Part shown: positions 39,575-49,769 of the stretch, piece after piece
Layout: each line of letters starts with the position of its first letter
Position numbering within the stretch: the stretch's first letter is position 1
DNA from: Knoellia subterranea KCTC 19937
GTDB lineage: Bacteria; Actinomycetota; Actinomycetes; Actinomycetales; Dermatophilaceae
Direction of reading: 5' to 3'
DNA length: 64,000 bases
Assembly: GCF_000768685.1 (NCBI RefSeq)
Contig: NZ_AVPK01000006.1
Location: 124,001-188,000, forward strand
Position numbers and translations under genes: made by a program
The notes under the pieces: model-generated
What the model was told of the DNA's origin: nothing
Seen by the model: the letters and a program-made list of their open reading frames with translations, nothing else
The model's database searches: none

Positions 39575-39650
39575 CCCCAACTCGCCAATTCCTCCCCTCC
39601 GGGACATCAAGGATTCAACGTCCCGGAGGGGAGGAATTGGCGAGTTGGGG
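39575..39650. terminator. Perfect 31-bp hairpin at cysE/CHAT gene ends
   Basis: Arms 39575-39605 and 39620-39650 are perfectly complementary over 31 bp (starting CCCCAACTCGCCAATTCCTC), loop 14 nt. The CHAT gene's last codons and stop lie in the loop and right arm. Part of the core is shared with the 17851-17935 direct repeat. Confidence 0.85.
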
Positions 39651-42221
39651 GCGGGACCAGGTGTTGCCGTAGGCGCAGAACGCGTCGGCGCCCTCCACCT
39701 CAATTGCGGTGTCCCGCAGGGCTGTTGCGACATCGACCCCGTCGACGAGGCGTTTGTGCAGGGCGATCATCGCCGCGGCTGCGACGTCGTCGTGGACGGG
39801 GTTCGTCGCTGCGACGGCGCACTGCACGCCGAGGCTGAGGAGGGCCGCGGCCAGACCCAGCGGTTCGTCACCGACGCGTCCGCGGCTCCTGCCGACGTCG
39901 CATGCGGACAGGATCACGAGTTCGGCGGCCAGGGGCGCTCGGAGTTCATGGGCGAAGACCGGTCCGTCCGCCATGTCGAGCGACGAGAAGAGTGGGCTCT
40001 GGTCGACGTGATGGCCGTGCGCGGCGAGATGGACGACCGACGCGGAAGCCAGCGCCTCACGCACATCGGACGACACGGCATACGCGGATGGGGTTGTCGC
40101 AGAAGCCGATTCGGTATGCCGGCCCCACACCTTCGTGACCGCCTGCGCCTCCTCGCGCGATCTGGGGAGGCCCGGCCCGGGGAGTGCCACAACCCCGCGG
40201 AAGTGAGTCTCGGGGGTGCTGCGTTGTGCCCAGGCCGTCACGGACGGTGACGCGACGACAGGGTGCCCGGCGAGGGAGGGGAGCGCCCGCCAGGGCAATG
40301 AGGCCAACCCGACCGTGGGCACGATGACAACGGTGCCAGTCGCAGAGAGGCCGCCCAGCAGAAGCTCGTCGACCCGGCGGAGCGATGAGGCGCGAGCCTG
40401 CGCGAGGAACCGAGTCATGGTCGGTCGGGCGAGGGCGAGAGCTCGCCCATCGGCGATGGCCCGGGAACTCGCCGCCACCACCTCGGCCACTGGGCCGATC
40501 ACGCTCTGTGTGGTGTCCGGGCCGACGACGACACGCACGACCGTCCCCCGCACCTCGTGGAACGTGATGACCGTGGCCCTGCGGCTCCCCACAAGCGCGG
40601 AGGCTTCGTCGAGCGTGGCGGCGCGGAGCCCTCGCGGCCCCGTTGGTCCGACGGTACGGCGAAGTCTCTCGGTGATCTCCGCCTGCAGTCGGCTTGCCTC
40701 CAGGTCGCGATCCGCGGTCACTGCCGCTGCTGAGGGCTGACTGTCGCGGCGCAGCTGGCGGAGCCGACCCACCAGAGCGCCGACCTCGGGATCGTCCGGG
40801 GGGCTGATGGGTGCCGCGCGCAGGGATGCCGCCCGCCAGCGCTCGGTGGCGTCGAACAGTTCGGACAGGGACCCCGAGTCGGTGGCCATCTCCACGTCCG
40901 CGTCGCGGATCCGCGCTGCGTGCAGGGCCAACCCTGCCCGGACTTCGTGACTGTGGACCGAGCCTTGGTCGCGGGCCAACCTTTCGGCGGCACCCGCAAT
41001 CAGCGCCTTGGAGCGGGCGGGGTCACCGTCGGCGGCGGCGATCCGGGCCGCGAGCAGACGCTCGTGGAGGAACGCGCCCAGTGGCACGACGGCGGACGTG
41101 TCGAGCCGATCCAATTCCTGTTGGGCCACCGCGAGGTCGTGCCGCCCCAGCGCCACCTCGGCGCGGATCCGAGTCGCCAGTCGCTCATTGGGTTGAGTGG
41201 CGATCGGGCTGTCCCAGCGGTCGGCGACGGCACCCGCCCGGGCGAGCCGACTCCCGATACCGACGTCGATGGCAGCCCCGATGAGCTCCGCCTCGTCCGC
41301 GCGACCCGTCGCGTGCAGGGTCCGGAACGTCCGTGCCGCCCGGCCAGCCCAGGTCCTGGCCTGTGCAAGATCGCCTCGGAGCAGCGCGGCTCGGGCCAGA
41401 TCGATCTGGATGTCGCCGCGTTCCAGCGGCTGACGGTCCTCGTGGGCGGCGTCGAGACCGAGATCGAGCACCACCTCTGCCTCATCGACGAGCCCGGCGT
41501 CCAACAGAACCTTCGCGTGATCCAGGTGCGCCCGAGCGAGCCCCACCCCTGCGTCGAGAGCGGCGGCCTCGGCCATGAGCCGCAGCGCAGCGGGCAGGTC
41601 CCCGGCGATGAACGCCACGCACCCGAGGTTGTGCCGCGCCTTGAACTCCTCCATCCGCAGGTCGTGGTCCACGGCGATCGTGAGCGCTGCCTCCAGATCG
41701 GCTCGGCCCTCCGTCAGCTGCTGGAGTGAGAGGTGGGCCAGGCCGCGATTGATCAGGGTCGCGCACCTCTCCGGTGGCGTGAGGTCATCGAGGTGCGGCT
41801 CCACCTGGGCGAGCTCGGCCAGCGCTTCGGACCAGTTCGACGACATGACATTGATCGCCCCGGCCTGGATGTGGGCGATGGCACCCAACAGAGGAGCGGA
41901 GGAGCCGTCGACGATCCGGTGCACCTCATCGAGGAGCGCGAGTCCCGCCTCGGGGCCATCGATGCCGAACCGGGCCATCGCCCGGGTGATGAGAATCCGG
42001 GCGTGGAGACGCAGTCGCTCGTCACTCGTCGACTCCCCGCCGGCGACGGCCTCGGCTTGCCCGGCCTCCCCGAGCTGACCGTCCTCCCCGACGGACTCGA
42101 GGGCACGGAGAGCCCGCGCCAGGGCAGCGTCGGCCTTCCGGTAGTGACCGGCGGTGTTCTCCGACCGGCCCCGGGCGTGAAGTTCGCGAGCTGACTCGAG
42201 TGTCGTCGGAGCTCCCCTCAG
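39615..42221 (-). CDS. TPR-CHAT domain protease-like protein, inferred CTG start
   Basis: An 868-residue protein. The N-terminal two-thirds is TPR-like helical repeats, and the C-terminal CHAT (caspase-like) domain has the His-Cys dyad H735 (HLAAHGHH) and C774 (LSACDVG). CHAT proteases act as regulated peptidases, often in conflict or cell-death systems. The first ATG is at 41978, but the TPR sequence continues 81 codons upstream (LESARELHARGRSENT...) with no ATG, GTG or TTG before the upstream in-frame stop. CTG 42221 overlaps the previous gene's stop as CTGA, mirroring the ATGA overlaps elsewhere in this operon, so I take it as the start. Last gene of the subtilase-sigma operon. Confidence 0.82.
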   Translation of the reverse strand: MRGAPTTLESARELHARGRSENTAGHYRKADAALARALRALESVGEDGQLGEAGQAEAVAGGESTSDERLRLHARILITRAMARFGIDGPEAGLALLDEVHRIVDGSSAPLLGAIAHIQAGAINVMSSNWSEALAELAQVEPHLDDLTPPERCATLINRGLAHLSLQQLTEGRADLEAALTIAVDHDLRMEEFKARHNLGCVAFIAGDLPAALRLMAEAAALDAGVGLARAHLDHAKVLLDAGLVDEAEVVLDLGLDAAHEDRQPLERGDIQIDLARAALLRGDLAQARTWAGRAARTFRTLHATGRADEAELIGAAIDVGIGSRLARAGAVADRWDSPIATQPNERLATRIRAEVALGRHDLAVAQQELDRLDTSAVVPLGAFLHERLLAARIAAADGDPARSKALIAGAAERLARDQGSVHSHEVRAGLALHAARIRDADVEMATDSGSLSELFDATERWRAASLRAAPISPPDDPEVGALVGRLRQLRRDSQPSAAAVTADRDLEASRLQAEITERLRRTVGPTGPRGLRAATLDEASALVGSRRATVITFHEVRGTVVRVVVGPDTTQSVIGPVAEVVAASSRAIADGRALALARPTMTRFLAQARASSLRRVDELLLGGLSATGTVVIVPTVGLASLPWRALPSLAGHPVVASPSVTAWAQRSTPETHFRGVVALPGPGLPRSREEAQAVTKVWGRHTESASATTPSAYAVSSDVREALASASVVHLAAHGHHVDQSPLFSSLDMADGPVFAHELRAPLAAELVILSACDVGRSRGRVGDEPLGLAAALLSLGVQCAVAATNPVHDDVAAAAMIALHKRLVDGVDVATALRDTAIEVEGADAFCAYGNTWSRPQLANSSPPGR

Positions 42222-42721
42222 ATCTCAATCCCCGGCGTGATGACCGGCCGTGTGCCGGGTTCGTCGTGCCGACGGATGAGGAGGTGGACGGTGCCGTGGT
42301 CGACCTGCTCGAAGACGAAGCGCCCTTCGTCGTCGGCCATCGCCTCCTGGCTGCGCGAACGCTCGCGCAGTTCCACTTCGGCCCCGGGGGCAGTCACCCA
42401 CCCACGCAGTCGGACCTTGTCGCGGTCCACCGGCTCGAGGGTCACCATGATGCTGAGCCCGGTACTCTCGAAGGTCACCGTCGTCGCGCGGTCGTACTCG
42501 GTTGCGCGGGTGGCGCTGGCGGTGAGGCTGTCGCTCATGAGATGCGCGATCTCCGCCTCGAGGCTGGCCACCGTCATGGCGAACTTGACGCGCTCGCCGA
42601 GACCGAACGGAACCGGGTCGACCAGGCTCAAGTGGCTTCGGATCAGGCCCAGGGCTCTCAGGTCCTCGGCGTCGAGGGCTTGCTCTGCCAGGACGTCTTC
42701 CTGGTTCTCGTGGGGGGTCAT
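42218..42721 (-). CDS. Carboxypeptidase-regulatory-like domain protein
   Basis: A 167-residue protein. The C-terminal half (about 75-160) is beta-rich with SIMVTLEPVDRDKVRLRGWVTAPGAEVELRE and EGRFVFEQVDHGTVHLLIR, resembling the regulatory-like/transthyretin-type fold found next to sigma factor and CHAT genes in actinobacteria. The N-terminal half is helical (LRALGLIRSHLSLVDPVPFGLGERV). No catalytic residues are evident; an adaptor role between sigma factor and CHAT protein is a guess. Overlaps the sigma gene (ATGA) and the CHAT gene (CTGA). Confidence 0.75.
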   Translation of the reverse strand: MTPHENQEDVLAEQALDAEDLRALGLIRSHLSLVDPVPFGLGERVKFAMTVASLEAEIAHLMSDSLTASATRATEYDRATTVTFESTGLSIMVTLEPVDRDKVRLRGWVTAPGAEVELRERSRSQEAMADDEGRFVFEQVDHGTVHLLIRRHDEPGTRPVITPGIEI

Positions 42722-43341
42722 GCCGTCACCTCCCAGCTGGGGTCAGCTAGGAGCGCGACACGGAGCTTCGCGAGGCACCGGCCGCGGGTCGGACCGATGC
42801 TGCCGACGGGGATGCCGAGGGCTGCGCTGACCGCGGAATAGTCGGGGCGATCGACGAAAGCCACCAGACGAAGCAACTGCTGGCACCGCTCGGGCAGGCT
42901 CTCGACATGGCGCCACATGGCCCTGGCCGCGTGCGCATCCTCGGTGGCGATCGCGGGATCCGCCGACTTCACCGGTCCCGTGGGGTCGGAGGTCGGTGGC
43001 TCGTCCCATGGTTCCTGGGGGACGGTTCGGCGGCTGCGACGCACTGCACTCCAGGCTTCCCGCTTGGTCGTCGTGAGCAGCCACTGGAGTACGGCCTGCG
43101 GGTCGGTGATCGCATCGCTGTGCTCGACGAGCCGCAGCCAGGTCGTCTGCACGACGTCCTCGGCGGTTGCCGCATCGGCGCCCTGCGATCGGGCCGTGTG
43201 CCACAACAAGGGAGTCACGTCGTCGACAAGCGCCTCCATCGCACTGGAGTCCCCGGCCCGATGGAGCGCAAAGGCCCGAGCTGCGGCCGCCGCGAGCCCC
43301 GTGGATCGGGCGCCAGTGTTCTCGCCCTTGGGGGAATTCAT
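42718..43341 (-). CDS. Sigma-70 family (ECF-like) sigma factor
   Basis: A 207-residue sigma factor with region 2 (about 20-95, including AEDVVQTTWLRLVEHSDAI and VLQWLLTTTKREAWSAVRRSRR) and region 4 (about 145-195, LPERCQQLLRLVAFVDRPDYSAVSAALGIPVGSIGPTRGRCLAKLR). No anti-sigma gene is adjacent; the CHAT or small domain protein may take that role. ATG overlaps the subtilase stop. I infer that it recognises the element present in both orientations at 45077-45156, co-activating the two divergent operons. Confidence 0.9.
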   Translation of the reverse strand: MNSPKGENTGARSTGLAAAAARAFALHRAGDSSAMEALVDDVTPLLWHTARSQGADAATAEDVVQTTWLRLVEHSDAITDPQAVLQWLLTTTKREAWSAVRRSRRTVPQEPWDEPPTSDPTGPVKSADPAIATEDAHAARAMWRHVESLPERCQQLLRLVAFVDRPDYSAVSAALGIPVGSIGPTRGRCLAKLRVALLADPSWEVTA

Positions 43342-44978
43342 CGCTCCTCCTCGAGGACGTGGGTCGTCTGGGTGAGAAGGTCCGCGACGACGCCACCTGC
43401 CTTCTTGACCCGGCTCGGGACGTCAGAGCCACCCATCGCGCCGACCGCAGCGGCGATCTGGCCGGCGATGGCAGGCGCCGCGAAGGACGTCCCACTCCAC
43501 AGGCCGAAGCCTCCGCGGTAGTCGTCGTAGTCAACGGCGCCCCGCGTCGGCACGCCGGTCAGAGCAGAGGATCCCTGCTGCTGCAGGACCTCGGCCCGGC
43601 TCGACGCATTGAACGTCGTGGGCATGGTGCTCACGACGTTCGTGGCCGTGGCGTAGGTCTGCACCCAGTGCCCGGTGTTCGAATAGATCGACACCGTGCG
43701 GCCGTCGGGGTTGAGGGCGCCGACGCTCACCAGGGGGGCCGTGTCGCCGCTCCCCGAGGGGAAGTGGTTCGCGAAGGCCGCGGGATAGAACTCGACGTCG
43801 CTGGCGTTGTTGCCCACCGACGCCACCACCGTCACGCCGTTCTCGGTCAGACCCTTGAGGACCCGAAGCAGGGCCGATTCGTCGTCGAAGGCACCGGGCG
43901 TCTCGTGCCGATAGCCCAGCGACAACGAGACGACATCGATGGCCTCACCCGTGTCCGCTCCGTGGCGAAGCGCCGCCACCTGACGGAGGTGCAGAGCCGT
44001 GAGCGCCGAGACGACGTCCTTCTCATCCGCCACCCCGTCACCCCACATGACGGGAGCCGAGAGGATACGCACGTCGGGGCAGTGTTGCCGCACGACGCCG
44101 GCGATGAAGGTGCCGTGCCCTGCGAGGGGGTCGAGTTGTCCGTTGACCAAATCGATGGTGACTCCCGAGCTCTCCCGGGGCATGTTCACCGGTCCCGGGA
44201 GCTCGTGGGTGCGGTCGTCGGTGAACCACTCGTGCTCCCCCAGACCCGTGTCGAGGATTGCCACGACGGGACCACCCTCGCGTCGCTCGGGTGCGTCGGC
44301 GCTCCAGACCACTGGCATGCGGCCTCCGGGACCGAACCCCACGCCCTGGCCGTAACCCACGCCCTGCCCATAACCGACGCCCTGCCCATAACCGACGCCC
44401 TGGCCGTAGCCGACCCCCTGTCCGTACCCAACACCCTGCCCGTACCCCACCCCCTGCCCGTAGCCACTGGCCGTCATCACGTGGCACAGGCCAACACCGG
44501 TCACGGCTTCGGGGTCCGAGAGCCGCACCGTCTGGAGGATCTCCCATGCGTCCGCGGGCTTGATGGGTGAACCCTCCTGATCCAGCGTGCGGACCGGTTC
44601 GAACCGGATCGCCGTGAACCCCACCCGATCGAGCTCGTCGATCAGATCGTTGCGCTCCGCGAAGGCGAGGGAAGGATCCTCCAGTGGGCGGACGGCATAC
44701 CCAAGGTTCTTGGCCACGGACGCCAAGGCGTCACGGCTGCGGTCGGCCGACCGTCCGATGACGCCGGGGAGGAGGAGAACGTCTCCGACGTAGGCCGTGG
44801 GTTCGGGCCGCAACGGCGTCTCGCGATCCTTGGGATGCACGGTCACCGTGGCGGTCGACGGGTCAAGAACCCGAACGTTCAGCCGACGGACGGCCGTCTC
44901 CGGGAGGAGAACCGGAGGGATGAGTCGCGGTCGGGATTCTCGACCGTCCTGGCCCTGTGCAACCTCGTCGTGGTTCAT
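43338..44978 (-). CDS. Subtilase (S8) with seven GYGQGV repeats
   Basis: A 546-residue serine peptidase: Asp243 (VAILDTGL), His288 (AGHGTFIAGV), Ser498 (SGTSFAAPAIAG) and an oxyanion Asn in SVGNNASDVEF. Before the catalytic domain, residues 172-213 are seven exact GYGQGV hexapeptides ending in GFGPGG, a flexible Gly/Tyr/Gln-rich segment. The N-terminal ~170 residues are a separate non-catalytic domain. There is no signal peptide, unusual for subtilases, so it should act inside the cell. GGAAGG lies 5 nt before ATG 44978. First gene of the operon with sigma factor and CHAT protein; likely partner or target of those proteins. Confidence 0.92.
   Translation of the reverse strand: MNHDEVAQGQDGRESRPRLIPPVLLPETAVRRLNVRVLDPSTATVTVHPKDRETPLRPEPTAYVGDVLLLPGVIGRSADRSRDALASVAKNLGYAVRPLEDPSLAFAERNDLIDELDRVGFTAIRFEPVRTLDQEGSPIKPADAWEILQTVRLSDPEAVTGVGLCHVMTASGYGQGVGYGQGVGYGQGVGYGQGVGYGQGVGYGQGVGYGQGVGFGPGGRMPVVWSADAPERREGGPVVAILDTGLGEHEWFTDDRTHELPGPVNMPRESSGVTIDLVNGQLDPLAGHGTFIAGVVRQHCPDVRILSAPVMWGDGVADEKDVVSALTALHLRQVAALRHGADTGEAIDVVSLSLGYRHETPGAFDDESALLRVLKGLTENGVTVVASVGNNASDVEFYPAAFANHFPSGSGDTAPLVSVGALNPDGRTVSIYSNTGHWVQTYATATNVVSTMPTTFNASSRAEVLQQQGSSALTGVPTRGAVDYDDYRGGFGLWSGTSFAAPAIAGQIAAAVGAMGGSDVPSRVKKAGGVVADLLTQTTHVLEEER
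44341..44466 (-). repeat. 18-bp tandem array encoding GYGQGV x7
   Basis: Seven consecutive 18-bp units (126 bp) with synonymous differences between copies but identical peptide, indicating that the amino-acid sequence is selected. Confidence 0.95.
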
Positions 44979-45226: not shown

Positions 45227-46681
45227 ATGGCAACACAGCACGAGCAGGCAGCGCAGCGCGCGGCCATCAGGCCGGTCAAGGAGTCCGTCGAGGACGAGCT
45301 CCTGGCCAAGCCCGGTGTCGTCGCCGTCGACATCGCCGAGAAGGAGACCGACGGCAGGAAGACGGGGGAGCAGAGCATCGTCGTCTTCGTCGAGCAGAAG
45401 AAGCCGACGTCCAAGCTGTCCAAGGGGGCCGCGATCCCCAGGGAGATCGACGGCATCAAGACCGACGTCCAGGAACTCGTCATCGAGCTCCAGCCGGCCT
45501 ACAAGCCGGTCGACGCGGCCGAGCTCCTCGTCGACACGGGCGACTACCCGACGCTGGCCGGCGGCATCGGCATCGGTCCGCGCCGCAGCGTCTTCCTCTC
45601 GCCGCCGGACGTGCCCGCTCCGGGCAACTACGTCTTCGTCGGCACGCTCGGCGCCATGGTGCGCGACCGCACGAGTGGCGCGACGATGGCGCTCACCAAC
45701 TTCCACGTCGCCTGCGTCAACAACACGTGGAGCGTCGGCGACCGCCAGGTGCAGCCGTCGCTCGTCGACGGCGGCGCCCCCACCGGAGAGTTCGGGTCGC
45801 TGACGCGGGCCGCGCTCTCAGAGAACATCGATGGCGCCGTCATCACCGTGGACGCCTCGGAGCCGTGGACCGCCACGGTCACGGGCATCGGTGGCGTCGC
45901 CGGCAGCACGGCAGCGACCGTCGGCATGGCGGTTCAGAAGCGTGGCCGCACGACCGAGCACACGTTCGGCACGGTCGCTTCGACGGACTTCACGGTCACC
46001 GTCAACTACGGCAGTGACGTGGGCTCGCGGACGCTGCGGCACCAGATTCGCATCGACACCGACACCTCGCGCAACCCGCGGTTCTCGGACCACGGGGACT
46101 CGGGCTCGGTCGTGCAGGACATGTCCCGCAACGTCGTCGGCCTCCTCTTCGCCGGAAGCAACGACGGGTCGATGACCTTCGCCAACCCGATCCAGGCCGC
46201 CCTCGACGAACTCGACGTCGACCTGCTGACGGCACCGGTTCTCACCGTGACCCGTCCGATCCTGTCGTGCTTCAACACCCGGATCACGGTCTGTCTCAAG
46301 ACCCGCACCGACATCGGGTGCATGACGATCAAGACGAAGATCCCGGCGCTCTGTCCGACCCTCGTGACCAAGCCGGCGATCTGTGACTTCGTCACGCGGC
46401 CGGCGACGTGTGCCGTCACGAAGATCCCGATCTGCGACCTCGAGTTCACCCGCCCCGGGTGCACCCTCCCGACGCGTGCGTGCGGTGGCGAGTTCGAGCG
46501 CCCGCCGATCGAGGAGTGGTCCCGCGGTGGCGGCGGGTTCGGCTATGGCACCTCGGCCACAGAGGTCGAAGCGGCAGCCGACGAGGCCTACTGGGGTGGC
46601 TACCTCGCCGCCCTGGAGGAGCTCGACGCGCTGGATTCCGAGGGCACTGGCTCCGGCTCCGGCTCTGGCGGAGGGGCCTGA
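45227..46681 (+). CDS. Trypsin-like protease with Thr/Cys repeat tail (putative lanthipeptide substrate)
   Basis: A 484-residue cytoplasmic protein (no signal peptide). Residues about 110-335 are a chymotrypsin-fold peptidase with His160 (TNFHVAC), Asp202 (NIDGAVI) and Ser292 (HGDSGSV). Residues 342-419 hold nine cysteines (348, 356, 365, 376, 386, 395, 403, 412, 419), each preceded 3-6 residues earlier by Thr-Lys/Arg, as in TKPAIC, TRPATC and TKIPIC. A Gly/Ser-rich acidic C-terminus follows. AGGGAG lies 6 nt before ATG 45227. The three genes after it are a kinase, a HopA1-like protein and LanC, the class V lanthipeptide enzyme set. I infer that the tail Thr residues are dehydrated and joined to the cysteines. 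Confidence 0.85.
   Translation: MATQHEQAAQRAAIRPVKESVEDELLAKPGVVAVDIAEKETDGRKTGEQSIVVFVEQKKPTSKLSKGAAIPREIDGIKTDVQELVIELQPAYKPVDAAELLVDTGDYPTLAGGIGIGPRRSVFLSPPDVPAPGNYVFVGTLGAMVRDRTSGATMALTNFHVACVNNTWSVGDRQVQPSLVDGGAPTGEFGSLTRAALSENIDGAVITVDASEPWTATVTGIGGVAGSTAATVGMAVQKRGRTTEHTFGTVASTDFTVTVNYGSDVGSRTLRHQIRIDTDTSRNPRFSDHGDSGSVVQDMSRNVVGLLFAGSNDGSMTFANPIQAALDELDVDLLTAPVLTVTRPILSCFNTRITVCLKTRTDIGCMTIKTKIPALCPTLVTKPAICDFVTRPATCAVTKIPICDLEFTRPGCTLPTRACGGEFERPPIEEWSRGGGGFGYGTSATEVEAAADEAYWGGYLAALEELDALDSEGTGSGSGSGGGA
46250..46483 (+). other. Coding segment of the nine-unit T-[KR]-x-C tail
   Basis: Codons 342-419 of the protease. Units start at Thr 342, 351, 359, 370, 381, 390, 398, 408 and 416; every one of the nine cysteines has one. 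The Thr-to-Cys distance shortens toward the C-terminus (6, 5, 6, 6, 5, 5, 5, 4, 3). Confidence 0.9.
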
Positions 46682-46684
46682 GCC

Positions 46685-47608
46685 GTGGCTTCGTCCCCCA
46701 GCCTGCTCGGCGCGGCCGTCCGTCACGGGCTCGTTCCCGCGGCAGACGTCCGCGCCGGGCGGGTCCGCGTGCGACCCGTCTCCCGCAGCAACGCCGTGCA
46801 CGTCATCGAGCACGACGGGGCGCCGGTGGGCTACGTCAAGCAGGCTGGGGCAGCGGCCCGGCTCGACGGTGACGACACCGTCGGCGCCGAGGCCGCCCTC
46901 CTGGACGCGATCGCGTCCCTGAATCTCGCACCGACCCCGGTCCGTCAGGGGGGACCGGGGTCGGTGTGGATGACCGCCCTCCCGGGTGAGGAACTGTCCG
47001 TGGTGCAGGACCCGGCGCTGCTGCGACCCGCCGCCGTCGAACTCGGTCGCGTCCTGGCGCGCCTCCACCGCCACCCGGTGGGTCCGGGTGTCCCCAAGGC
47101 GCCGACGCCGTGGCCGCTGCTCGACGAGCTCCCGCCCTCGATGGAGGGCGGGGCCGACCGCCCCGACGCGAAGCCCGTCCTCGACGCGCTCGAGTCGCCC
47201 GTGATCCGCCGCGCACTCGAGGCGGCGCGCGCGCAGTGGCGCCCGACCCACCTCATCCACGGAGACATCTCGCCCGGCAACGTCATGGTCACCACCTCGC
47301 CTGCGGGGGACGTCCGCGTTGGCCTCATTGACTTCGAACTCGGTGGGCACGGTTCTCCTGAAATGGATCTCGCGTCCGCCGCCGCCATGCTGACCGAGTT
47401 GTCCCAGCCGGGGTCGGACCTCGCCCAGCTCTGTCTCGAGGCGTATTGGACGGCCTGCGGGCCGGCTTCCCACACGGCCGCATGGCGGTGCGTGCGAGCG
47501 CTCCTCACGGCGTGGCAGGTCGCCCTGACGCTGGGCGAGAAGGGCGCCCTCGACGTCGAACGCCTCCTTGCCCGCGCCACGGCAGCAGCAGTCGAGGTGG
47601 CGTCGTGA
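46685..47608 (+). CDS. APH-fold phosphotransferase (LanK-like kinase)
   Basis: A 307-residue aminoglycoside-phosphotransferase-fold kinase: K52 (VGYVK), catalytic loop HGDISPGN (H192-N199, base D194) and metal-binding D216 in LIDFE. In class V lanthipeptide systems a kinase of this fold phosphorylates Ser/Thr of the precursor; here the Thr-rich protease tail encoded 3 nt upstream is the obvious candidate. GTG 46685 is weakly supported by GGAGG upstream. Its stop overlaps the next start (GTGA). A small-molecule kinase role is the alternative reading if the context is ignored. Confidence 0.85.
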   Translation: MASSPSLLGAAVRHGLVPAADVRAGRVRVRPVSRSNAVHVIEHDGAPVGYVKQAGAAARLDGDDTVGAEAALLDAIASLNLAPTPVRQGGPGSVWMTALPGEELSVVQDPALLRPAAVELGRVLARLHRHPVGPGVPKAPTPWPLLDELPPSMEGGADRPDAKPVLDALESPVIRRALEAARAQWRPTHLIHGDISPGNVMVTTSPAGDVRVGLIDFELGGHGSPEMDLASAAAMLTELSQPGSDLAQLCLEAYWTACGPASHTAAWRCVRALLTAWQVALTLGEKGALDVERLLARATAAAVEVAS

Positions 47609-48516
47609 AGACGTTCTCGGCGGAACACGCGCGCGAACTGCTCGCCGCGCGGGACGTCCTCCGCGAACCTTCGGACGGAACCTCGCCGAGCGAGCGTCTC
47701 TATCAACACTGGTATGCCGTCCGCCCACCTTCCGCACGCCCGTCCCGTCCCTGGGACCCACCGATCGCCTCGCTGGCCCGGGTGGCCCACGCAGCGGCAT
47801 CGGCGTGGGGTGAAGAGGACGTGGAGGTCATCGCCACGGGCATCGCCGGTGTCGTGGTCGTGCACACGGCGACGGGCCGCCGGGCCCTGACGAGGGGTGA
47901 GTACGTCACGACGAGCGGTCGACCCGGCTTCCCGCCACGAGAGGGCGACCGGGTGCGGGTGATCGAGCGTCGCGGTGCCGTCGTTCAGGACGGGTGGTGG
48001 CGCACTTGGGGTGCGGGCTGGGACCAGCGCCGCCCACCTGCGGACACGATCCGCGTCTACCTCAGACCCGCCCAGGGGAGGGTCGCCGAACTCATCCGCA
48101 CCGTGACCAGCGCTCTGGCACACCACGATTCGTGGTTGGTCAAGGTTGCCTCCCGACCGGAGCTGCTCGACCGTCCGGATGCCGTCGTCGCCTACGTCGC
48201 CGGACCCAACCGTCATGCCGCGCGCGCTGCCGTGGCCGACGCCGTCCTTGCTGCAGGTTTGTCGATCGGCGACCCGCCACCCCTCACGTGCCGACTCGGT
48301 GAGGGCGTCGGGTGGGCCGACGACCCCGGCACGGGAGAGAGCTTCGGCGAGGTGCGCTGTCAGGCGATCGCGACGGCATACGCGGCGGTTGAAGGGCACG
48401 CACAGGCGACGACCGACGCCGACTGGCTCGACGCGGTTGCGCGTGAATTCGCCTCTCGCGGAATCGATCCGGCACAGCCGCACCGGACCACGGGGAAGGA
48501 CTTGGTGGCGTCGTGA
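47605..48516 (+). CDS. HopA1-like protein (LanY-like lyase)
   Basis: A 303-residue protein resembling the T3SS-effector HopA1 family as found in class V lanthipeptide clusters, where it removes phosphate to form dehydroamino acids. Visible family-like stretches: SERLYQHWYAVRP near the N-terminus, DTIRVYLRPAQGRVAELI (about 150) and LVKVASRPELLDRPDAVVAYV (about 180-200). The two Arg/Lys-rich segments would suit phosphate recognition. Starts inside the kinase stop (GTGA) and ends inside the LanC start (GTGA), so the three enzymes are made together. The assignment rests on motif memory and context. Confidence 0.75.
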   Translation: MKTFSAEHARELLAARDVLREPSDGTSPSERLYQHWYAVRPPSARPSRPWDPPIASLARVAHAAASAWGEEDVEVIATGIAGVVVVHTATGRRALTRGEYVTTSGRPGFPPREGDRVRVIERRGAVVQDGWWRTWGAGWDQRRPPADTIRVYLRPAQGRVAELIRTVTSALAHHDSWLVKVASRPELLDRPDAVVAYVAGPNRHAARAAVADAVLAAGLSIGDPPPLTCRLGEGVGWADDPGTGESFGEVRCQAIATAYAAVEGHAQATTDADWLDAVAREFASRGIDPAQPHRTTGKDLVAS

Positions 48517-49769
48517 CTGCCGTACTGGAGGGCTTGGTGCCGGAACCCGAACAACTCGTGCGCGGCGCTGAGGACGCCACGGCGGTCCTCGATGCTGCTC
48601 ACCGCGCGGTGGACCTGCTCGTCCGAACGGCCATCCTCGATCGCAGCGGCCCGACGTGGCCCGCCTGGGAACTCGGCCCGGACGGTCGAGCCCATGGAGT
48701 CGTCGCCGGTCGACGCTCCCTCTATGACGGCGATGCCGGGGTGGTGTGGGCTCTGACCCACCTCGGCACCGCCCTGAACCGCCCGGACGCCGCCGAGCTC
48801 GCGGCGTCCGGTGCCTCCACACTCCTGCAGGTGCGTCCGACCGGCCCGGACGCACCTGCAGGACTCCTCGTCGGTGAGGCCGGCGTCGACCTGCTCGCGC
48901 GGGTCGGCGCCCGAACCGCCCCGGGTTGGGCCGACGGGAGTGACATCACCGACGGCCTCGCCGGGATCCTGCTCGGCTTGGCCCGGGCCCGTCGGCACGA
49001 GGACCACGCAGCGGCGATCGTGGCCGAACTGCGTCACCGCTCCCGCGTCGAACCATGGGGCCGCAGCTGGCCCGACCACCGCCTGTCCGGTGGTGCCGCG
49101 CGGCCACTGTGCGGACTCGCGCACGGAGCGTCGGGCATCGCCTGGGCGCTCGCCGAGGCCGCCGCTGTCTGGTCGGGGCTGGCGCCTGCCGCTCTCGACC
49201 TTGCAGCCGACGCGCTCGCCTGGGAGGCCTCGTGGTCCGACCCTGCCCGGGGTGGGTGGCCGGACCTGCGCGAGGGCGATCCGACTTGGCCGGACCTCTG
49301 GTGCCACGGTGCCGCGGGGGCCGGTGCGGTCCGCCTCCGCCTGCTGCAGTTGGCCGGGTCCGGGCTCGACCTGCCGTGGTCGCTCGACACGACCCGCGCC
49401 GAAGCCGAGATGGCCGTGCAGCGCTGCGGTCAGGCGATGTCCGAGGCCGCCGCCACCGTTGCCACGCAGGGCGCTCTCGGTCTCACCGCGGGCTGGTCCC
49501 TCTGTCATGGAGTCGCAGGCCCCACGGGGGTCGTGGCGCTCGCGGCGGACGTGCTCGATGTGCCCGAGCATCGGGAGCGGGCGCTGGCCGCCGCGGCCAC
49601 GTTCGTTCGGAGTGTCCCGCTCGACCCGGAGGAGTGGCCGTGCGGGCTGCGCGGAGCCGACGGCGACGTGTCCCTCGCCAACGGCGTAGCGGGTACGGCG
49701 ATGCTGCTCGCGGATCTCGCCCTCCCGGGGACGGTCCCGCCCGTCGTGCTGCTCGGCTTCGGCCGGTGA
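48513..49769 (+). CDS. LanC-like lanthionine cyclase
   Basis: A 418-residue LanC-family alpha-toroid enzyme. The zinc ligands and acid/base His of characterised cyclases are conserved: H204 (GLAHGASG), C264 (LWCHGAAG), and C331-H332 (LCHGVAG). Additional GDAGVVWAL, GEAGVDLL and DGLAGILLGL segments are the repeated GxxG helices of the fold. It would add cysteine thiols to dehydrobutyrine in the protease tail. GTG 48513 overlaps the HopA1-like stop. It ends 3 nt from the convergent YtxH-like gene. Confidence 0.9.
   Translation: MTAVLEGLVPEPEQLVRGAEDATAVLDAAHRAVDLLVRTAILDRSGPTWPAWELGPDGRAHGVVAGRRSLYDGDAGVVWALTHLGTALNRPDAAELAASGASTLLQVRPTGPDAPAGLLVGEAGVDLLARVGARTAPGWADGSDITDGLAGILLGLARARRHEDHAAAIVAELRHRSRVEPWGRSWPDHRLSGGAARPLCGLAHGASGIAWALAEAAAVWSGLAPAALDLAADALAWEASWSDPARGGWPDLREGDPTWPDLWCHGAAGAGAVRLRLLQLAGSGLDLPWSLDTTRAEAEMAVQRCGQAMSEAAATVATQGALGLTAGWSLCHGVAGPTGVVALAADVLDVPEHRERALAAAATFVRSVPLDPEEWPCGLRGADGDVSLANGVAGTAMLLADLALPGTVPPVVLLGFGR

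Follow-up and report, generated by a model that had tools for sequence, protein, structure and literature searches.

The window analysed here is a stretch of 64,000 nucleotides from Knoellia subterranea KCTC 19937 (contig NZ_AVPK01000006.1, positions 124,001 to 188,000 of the forward strand). It contains a unit of four genes encoding, in this order, a NAL1-like serine protease with a tail rich in Thr and Cys, a kinase of the APH fold, a HopA1-type lyase and a LanC cyclase (Table 1). The genes are joined by one gap of 3 nt followed by two GTGA overlaps, as given in a preliminary description of the sequence. The assignment of the three downstream genes made there was confirmed by matches to the Pfam families PF01636, PF17914 and PF05147, and the zinc ligands of LanC are all in place. 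No transporter gene is present in the four-gene unit. As argued below, the tail of the protease is very probably the substrate of the three enzymes.

Table 1. Features of the four-gene unit and of the divergent module (positions in the window; the 63 loci are defined in the text)
Feature	Position	Strand	Basis
NAL1-like serine protease with proposed lanthionine-type tail, 484 residues	45227..46681	+	start ATG 45227; likely triad H160, D202, S292
Disordered Thr/Cys tail (candidate substrate), residues 340–419, with nine T-[KR]-x-C units	46244..46483	+	Cys positions, pLDDT, family pattern
C-terminal helix, residues 444–471, motif [FY]WxGYxAAL 3' of the tail, possible docking element	46556..46639	+	predicted structure, conservation
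APH-fold kinase (LanK-like)	46685..47608	+	PF01636 6e-23; HGDxxxxN at 192–199; Asp in LIDFE
HopA1-type phospho-Ser/Thr lyase (LanY-like)	47605..48516	+	PF17914 1.3e-16; R150, K180, R190, Y197
LanC cyclase	48513..49769	+	PF05147 1.8e-32; zinc ligands C264, C331, H332; active-site His in LAHG
S8 subtilase, divergent, associated module, not the substrate	43338..44978	-	PF00082 9.3e-18
ECF-type (extracytoplasmic function) sigma factor	42718..43341	-	TIGR02937 3.8e-16
167-residue protein	42218..42721	-	present at 19 of 19 loci with both sigma factor and CHAT gene (63-locus set)
TPR-CHAT (caspase-like) protein, TPR being tetratricopeptide repeat	39615..41978	-	PF12770 1.9e-26

The protease has the NAL1 fold with a conserved Ser-His-Asp triad; the Pfam family Nal1_C was matched below the cut-off only, in the related locus L143. 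Nine of its ten Cys lie in the tail (348, 356, 365, 376, 386, 395, 403, 412 and 419, the tenth being Cys163), and a Thr-Lys or Thr-Arg begins 3–6 residues upstream of each of the nine, exact to the residue as had been described. Residues 339–464 have a predicted local distance difference test score (pLDDT) below 50 in a single-chain structure prediction, and the tail is accordingly predicted to be disordered. The helix predicted at residues 444–471 also has mostly pLDDT values below 50. Its residues G458, Y459 and A462 are invariant across 18 Cys-tail proteases, and a similar motif follows the PFTE-repeat tails of relatives that are presented below. Judged by eye, the protease is intracellular, as it has no signal peptide. 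Disulfides are unstable in the cytosol, and thioethers are stable. In a tail scan of the window, which kept open reading frames (ORFs) with coding-like base bias, the protease was the sole ORF flagged. Neither plasmids nor viral_contigs yielded a close relative of the protease: the nine plasmid records all cover less than 80% of the query and do not exceed 60% identity, and not one of the 16 pattern matches in viral_contigs was confirmed.

The enzymes have the features expected of class V and Vb lanthipeptide synthesis: the HxDxxxxN motif and the Asp of the kinase, the Arg, Lys, Arg and Tyr of the lyase, and the zinc ligands of LanC. The lyase profile matches the solved lyase 9dk1_B (E 1.5e-16). 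The Lys-10-Arg-7-Tyr spacing of the window lyase equals that of CaoY K219/R229/Y236; in the CaoY paper, K219 and R229 were mutated and Y236 is named as conserved (PMC9486802). By sequence, the enzyme set matches class Vb as outlined in a review (PMC12328550), this class being assigned because the LanC is of the zinc type. The short leader-bearing precursor of these classes (below about 110–120 residues) has no counterpart in the region near the operon, where the candidate substrate is a protein of 484 residues.

The pairing of tail Cys with Ser or Thr holds across the family of this protease, termed trypsin-type here. The Cys residues of the three enzymes (n = 351) served as control set. Ser or Thr is found at positions -3 to -6 of 203 of the 205 Cys in 23 trypsin-type tails and of 130 of the control Cys, and the form [ST][KR] accounts for 183/205 and 13/351, respectively. 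One of the two unpaired Cys, in L086, is a trimming artefact according to the alignment. The frequency of Ser/Thr in the trypsin-type tails is 0.41 and 0.36 at -5 and -6 versus 0.04 at -7. When the window tail was shuffled with its Cys fixed, 5.9 paired Cys were expected versus the nine of nine present (p about 0.007). In five tails from Knoellia and Janibacter, the Cys (7/7 sites) and the Ser/Thr preceding Lys/Arg (7/7) are all kept, and the Lys/Arg sites are kept as Lys or Arg in 8/9 cases; conservation is 2/5 for other Ser/Thr and 9/32 for the remainder. The number of tail Cys ranges from 7 to 20 across Cys-tail proteases, and their spacing is irregular, from 5 to 12 with a single gap of 72.

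Other members of the protease family carry tails of a different kind. Tetrapeptide repeats of the PFTE/PFTQ type, free of Cys, occur in L038 (7885–9402), L103 and L039–L041, and KEFIKDKEL-like repeats in L102, L105, L106, L108–L111, L113 and L114. Judged from these sequences, the tail slot looks like a repeat hot spot. In Tessaracoccus (L091, 8983–11065; L117, 9900–11100) there is an extra protease-like start between tail and kinase, and in L091 two Cys tails lie in one ORF.

The occurrence of tail and enzymes was compared over 63 loci, made up of 53 loci from a scan of genome_contigs with the protease alignment, the window, and nine loci from a sample of genomes of the same order. The scan depends on matches to two short peptide patterns, so that the 53 loci do not represent all relatives. 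At least 6 tail Cys were taken to define a Cys tail, and duplicates were counted once (L032–L037 are identical as contigs to L076, L078, L079, L080, L083 and L097, and L189 to L082). A Cys tail is present at 22 loci: kinase, lyase and LanC lie downstream at 20 of them, and the contig ends within the kinase at the other two (L085 and L093). Neither lyase nor LanC was found at any of the 40 loci without Cys tail (whose proteases have short ends or repeats of the KEFIKDKE or PFTE type), three of which have less than 4.5 kb downstream. A kinase-like gene was detected at one of these 40, L040, and by a more sensitive scan also at L039 and L041. The remaining locus, L117, is frame-broken, with pieces of a Cys tail visible in two frames, and was set aside. 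A further Cys tail with all three enzymes occurs in L143, a relative of the 'same phylum' grade that belongs elsewhere in the phylum. The co-occurrence that the preliminary description had put forward as a check thus holds, and a Cys tail lacking the enzymes was not encountered among the 22, two of these being cut within the kinase.

The protease was matched in 42 of the 297 genomes of the order sample. Twelve of these gave no locus, and the 30 readable tails contain either 7–9 Cys (7 tails) or 0–1 (23 tails). A HopA1 gene is present in 18 of the 297 genomes, including all seven with a Cys tail (hypergeometric p 8e-10, without correction for relatedness); five of the seven belong to one genus. 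A search with the tail alone in 198 genomes of the order gave clear matches in three genomes, each of which has the enzymes, and four marginal ones (L194–L197, E 0.004–0.009). Trypsin-type Cys tails were found in nine named families, Intrasporangiaceae, Nocardioidaceae, Micrococcaceae, Microbacteriaceae, Dermacoccaceae, Cellulomonadaceae, Propionibacteriaceae, Ornithinimicrobiaceae and Nitriliruptoraceae; in the cases from Microbacteriaceae and Nitriliruptoraceae, the contig ends within the kinase.

The state of the active sites follows that of the tail. The HxDxxxxN motif and the Asp are intact in all 25 complete kinases of Cys-tail loci, the Arg, Lys, Arg and Tyr in all 24 lyases, and the zinc ligands in all 23 complete LanC proteins. 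At L071–L074, the lyase lacks the Lys and the Tyr, and LanC lacks the zinc ligands; the divergent sigma/CHAT/S8 module is retained, and the 14 kb covered by the analysis yielded neither a trypsin-type protease nor a kinase nor a Cys tail. The inactivated lyase and LanC genes beside this module remain open (L071, 5668–7808, likewise L072–L074). The kinase-like genes directly 3' of PFTE-tail proteases have lost the Asn and the Asp (L039, 10715–11566; L040, 10258–11058; L041).

The same arrangement was found with a second type of protease. At L069, L070 and L190, an S8 subtilisin with a C-terminal tail of Ser/Thr-x-Cys repeats, containing 11–17 Cys, is followed directly by kinase, lyase and LanC. 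L069 and L070 match PF00082 (1.8e-49 and 3e-54), and L190 was assigned to S8 by motif and by its likeness to L070. The three loci come from two genera, L070 and L190 being from the same one; L069 is 35% identical to L070. All 45 Cys of the S8-type tails have Ser or Thr at -3 to -6. By BLAST, the window lyase matches those of L069 (E 1.8e-11) and L070 (E 4e-15); the kinase, lyase and LanC profiles were built partly from S8-type sequences (L069 and L070 for the lyase, L069 for LanC), so that profile E-values are inflated there. The trypsin-type tail of Tessaracoccus L091 contains CPSxxxxC units that resemble the units of L070. Trypsin-type and subtilisin-type proteases are of unrelated folds, and the arrangement therefore either arose twice or moved between families. 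A search with the S8-type tail yielded 13 marginal matches (best E 1.6e-4) and missed G278 and G145, so that it is little informative. Upstream of two S8-type units there are regulator genes (L069, 1308–2153; L070, 2485–3336) which by eye are SARP/BTAD-like; they stand where the trypsin-type units often have the sigma/CHAT module.

A short precursor was sought around 22 loci, to which L080, L085, L091 and L093 do not belong. A longer coding-like ORF covers 30 of the 31 short Cys-containing ORFs found there, and the recurring candidates were rejected as shadows of conserved genes. The candidate in the window is antisense to a better-conserved gene (76–84% identity for the gene versus 70–76% for the candidate). 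No independent short precursor was found near the loci, the rest of the window's genome being outside the scan, and the earlier statement that the operon encodes none is upheld. Related enzyme sets with ordinary short precursors do exist: L176 (5527–9143) and L177 (4174–8823) encode a kinase and a fused HopA1-LanC together with peptides of 107–113 residues (a single one in L176, three in L177) that end in CSxACC, and L145 has a lyase and LanC beside peptides of 92 and 100 residues. Since such sets exist, the enzymes may have passed from peptide clusters to the proteases or in the opposite direction.

Taken together, it is very likely that the protease, kinase, lyase and LanC genes constitute a single modification unit, in which a folded protease has its tail modified by class Vb-type lanthionine chemistry. 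That the tail itself is the substrate, as proposed in the preliminary description, is supported by comparative genomics, namely by the co-occurrence, the second protease family and the dead sites where the tail is lacking. The reactions, the formation, number and connectivity of rings, the docking on the helix and the attachment of the tail to the mature protease are inferred, the chemistry from known enzyme families. The folded body of the protease would stand in for a leader and present the disordered tail. The kinase would phosphorylate Thr (or Ser) of the tail, and the lyase would then eliminate the phosphate to leave dehydrobutyrine or dehydroalanine, in the order documented for CaoK and CaoY (PMC9486802, where glutathione adducts were observed for CaoA). 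The zinc LanC would add the Cys lying 3–6 residues downstream to close a (methyl)lanthionine ring, by zinc-dependent thiol addition as presented for LanC enzymes in PMC9934072. The product would be a NAL1-like protease bearing a string of small rings, up to nine in the Knoellia tail, that could act as a rigid, reduction-proof arm. Anchor, plug, bait and released peptide are candidate roles for such an arm. The kinase and the lyase might dock on the conserved C-terminal helix. The case for this docking is weak because L038 has the helix with no kinase found, and the S8 types are without it by eye; a similar helix is preserved in PFTE-tail relatives, of which three also have a dead kinase.

Several points weigh against this interpretation. 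The range of -3 to -6 was picked after inspection of the data, p values for the shuffling of single tails are modest (0.0005 to 0.12), and in L085 Ser/Thr is missing from the range for one of the tail Cys. Out-of-frame readings of GC-rich DNA can reach 4–10 paired Cys per 80 residues, as do the paired-Cys stretches seen in a scan of both strands of L194–L210, which resemble such readings; the pairing measure, which also flagged many ORFs without protease motif, is not specific by itself. For these reasons, the post hoc range, the modest p values and the out-of-frame mimicry, weight is placed on the conserved in-frame pattern of the family and on the co-occurrence. The S8-type tails mostly have no Lys/Arg after Ser/Thr (present at 12 of 45 Cys) and by eye no C-terminal helix motif, and a common docking signal is therefore not supported. 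In L069 and L070, Ser/Thr is also found at +2 of 64% of the Cys, which makes the direction of the rings ambiguous. Cys252 of the lyase, kept in 23 others, is Ala in L081. The lyase and LanC genes that are dead and kept open in four genomes may indicate a non-catalytic role as well. The protease tree (which omits five short protease domains, L076 and L117) needs three changes of the Cys-tail label, two of them forced by well-supported branches; the number of independent pairs is therefore not sufficient for testing independence.

The attachment of the tail, but not its modification, would be contested if the modified tail were cut off by the protease or a partner, the protease being a giant leader and the product a free lanthipeptide. 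Removal of the leader is the norm in lanthipeptides, and a trypsin-like body with conserved triad next to a tail predicted to be disordered would suit such a release. There is, however, no transporter in the four-gene unit, the helix 3' of the tail is conserved and has its like in PFTE-tail relatives, and the variable number of tail Cys is unlike a fixed bioactive core. Release of the tail is held to be unlikely. It is slightly favoured that two unrelated protease families of Actinomycetota bear genetically encoded tails of repeats, which a dedicated set of kinase, lyase and cyclase converts into permanent, thioether-stapled arms on active intracellular enzymes. The cell would then employ lanthionine chemistry for making proteins and not for natural-product peptides; these would constitute a class of lanthionine proteins with cross-links that resist reduction where disulfides cannot form.

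The true substrate could also be a short precursor encoded elsewhere, which the protease would mature, with the Cys-rich tail serving another use. Related enzymes do adjoin short peptides at L176/L177 and L145, and partners outside the cluster are reported for other lanthipeptides (PMC8960859). The shadow nature of 30 of the 31 candidates and the antisense position of that in the window argue against it, and it would leave unexplained why two protease families have tails with paired Ser/Thr and Cys next to the enzymes; such a precursor is considered improbable. Still less credence is given to mere shared descent of one operon as the source of the co-occurrence. The three changes on the tree and the single genus behind five of the seven order-sample cases would fit it. 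A fork of support 98, however, unites 14 Cys-tail rows with five tail-less proteases from Micrococcus, Citricoccus and Propionibacteriaceae that are without the enzymes too, and neither the separate S8 case nor the dead enzymes found where the Cys tail is gone would be expected. Cys-rich tails often bind zinc, but that this one is a metal-binding or disulfide element, with the enzymes acting elsewhere, is barely credible given the irregular Cys-Cys spacing, the conservation of the Ser/Thr partners equal to that of the Cys, and the lack of the enzymes in tail-less relatives.

The genes of the divergent module lie upstream of the unit on the opposite strand. Its S8 subtilase contains about eight GVGYGQ-like hexapeptide repeats N-terminal to the catalytic domain. 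The enzymes track the tail and not this module: L084, L087 and L091 have Cys tail and enzymes with sigma factor and CHAT gene missing in the 9 kb upstream, and L038–L041 have sigma factor and CHAT gene with Cys tail, lyase and LanC missing. The Pfam and PADLOC tables, in which weak families may be missed, contain no effector-associated adaptor domain or NTPase except for a sub-threshold TCAD9 match of the kinase.

NAL1 (NARROW LEAF 1) is a plant developmental protease, and the alignment of the window protease to it stops at residue 339, N-terminal to the Cys tail. The lanthionine rings known so far are in short peptides. In the open-access literature, no title or abstract was found that presents a large protein, such as the tail of a protease, as a substrate of class V enzymes, most subscription papers being outside the search. 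Lanthipeptide mining collected only ORFs of fewer than 110 residues (PMC9486802) or discarded those above 120 residues (PMC7268733), and lanthionine proteins would have been overlooked because such pipelines drop precursors above about 110–120 residues. If the proposal is correct, lanthionine chemistry extends from peptides to enzymes, stable cross-linked protein tails can exist in the reducing cell, and the length limits set on precursors have created a blind spot in genome mining.

The conflict systems of Kaur and colleagues (2020, 2021) have similar neighbourhoods of trypsin-like, caspase-like and sigma-factor genes (PMC7159879, PMC8195603); in the main texts of the two papers, there are no 'lanthi' words and no HopA1, and in that of PMC8195603 no LanC. 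Eukaryotic LanCL is alike in being a LanC-type enzyme that acts on dehydroamino acids, but its reaction is described in PMC9934072 as intermolecular, external glutathione being added without formation of rings. The class Vb proteins SmoA and SmoC share LanK, LanY and a LanC cyclase with the present unit; SmoA is described as a lanthipeptide, and the section of the review devoted to it names no protease-tail substrate (PMC12328550). Class V lanthipeptides (cacaoidin with CaoK/CaoY, lexapeptide with LxmK/LxmY) likewise employ an APH-type kinase and a HopA1-type lyase, with the same Lys-Arg-Tyr spacing in CaoY (PMC9486802). Their substrate is a short peptide with an N-terminal leader, whereas the Knoellia candidate is the C-terminal part of an enzyme of 484 residues. 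What appears to be new is the proposed application of known lanthionine chemistry to another kind of substrate, the tail of a full-size protease.

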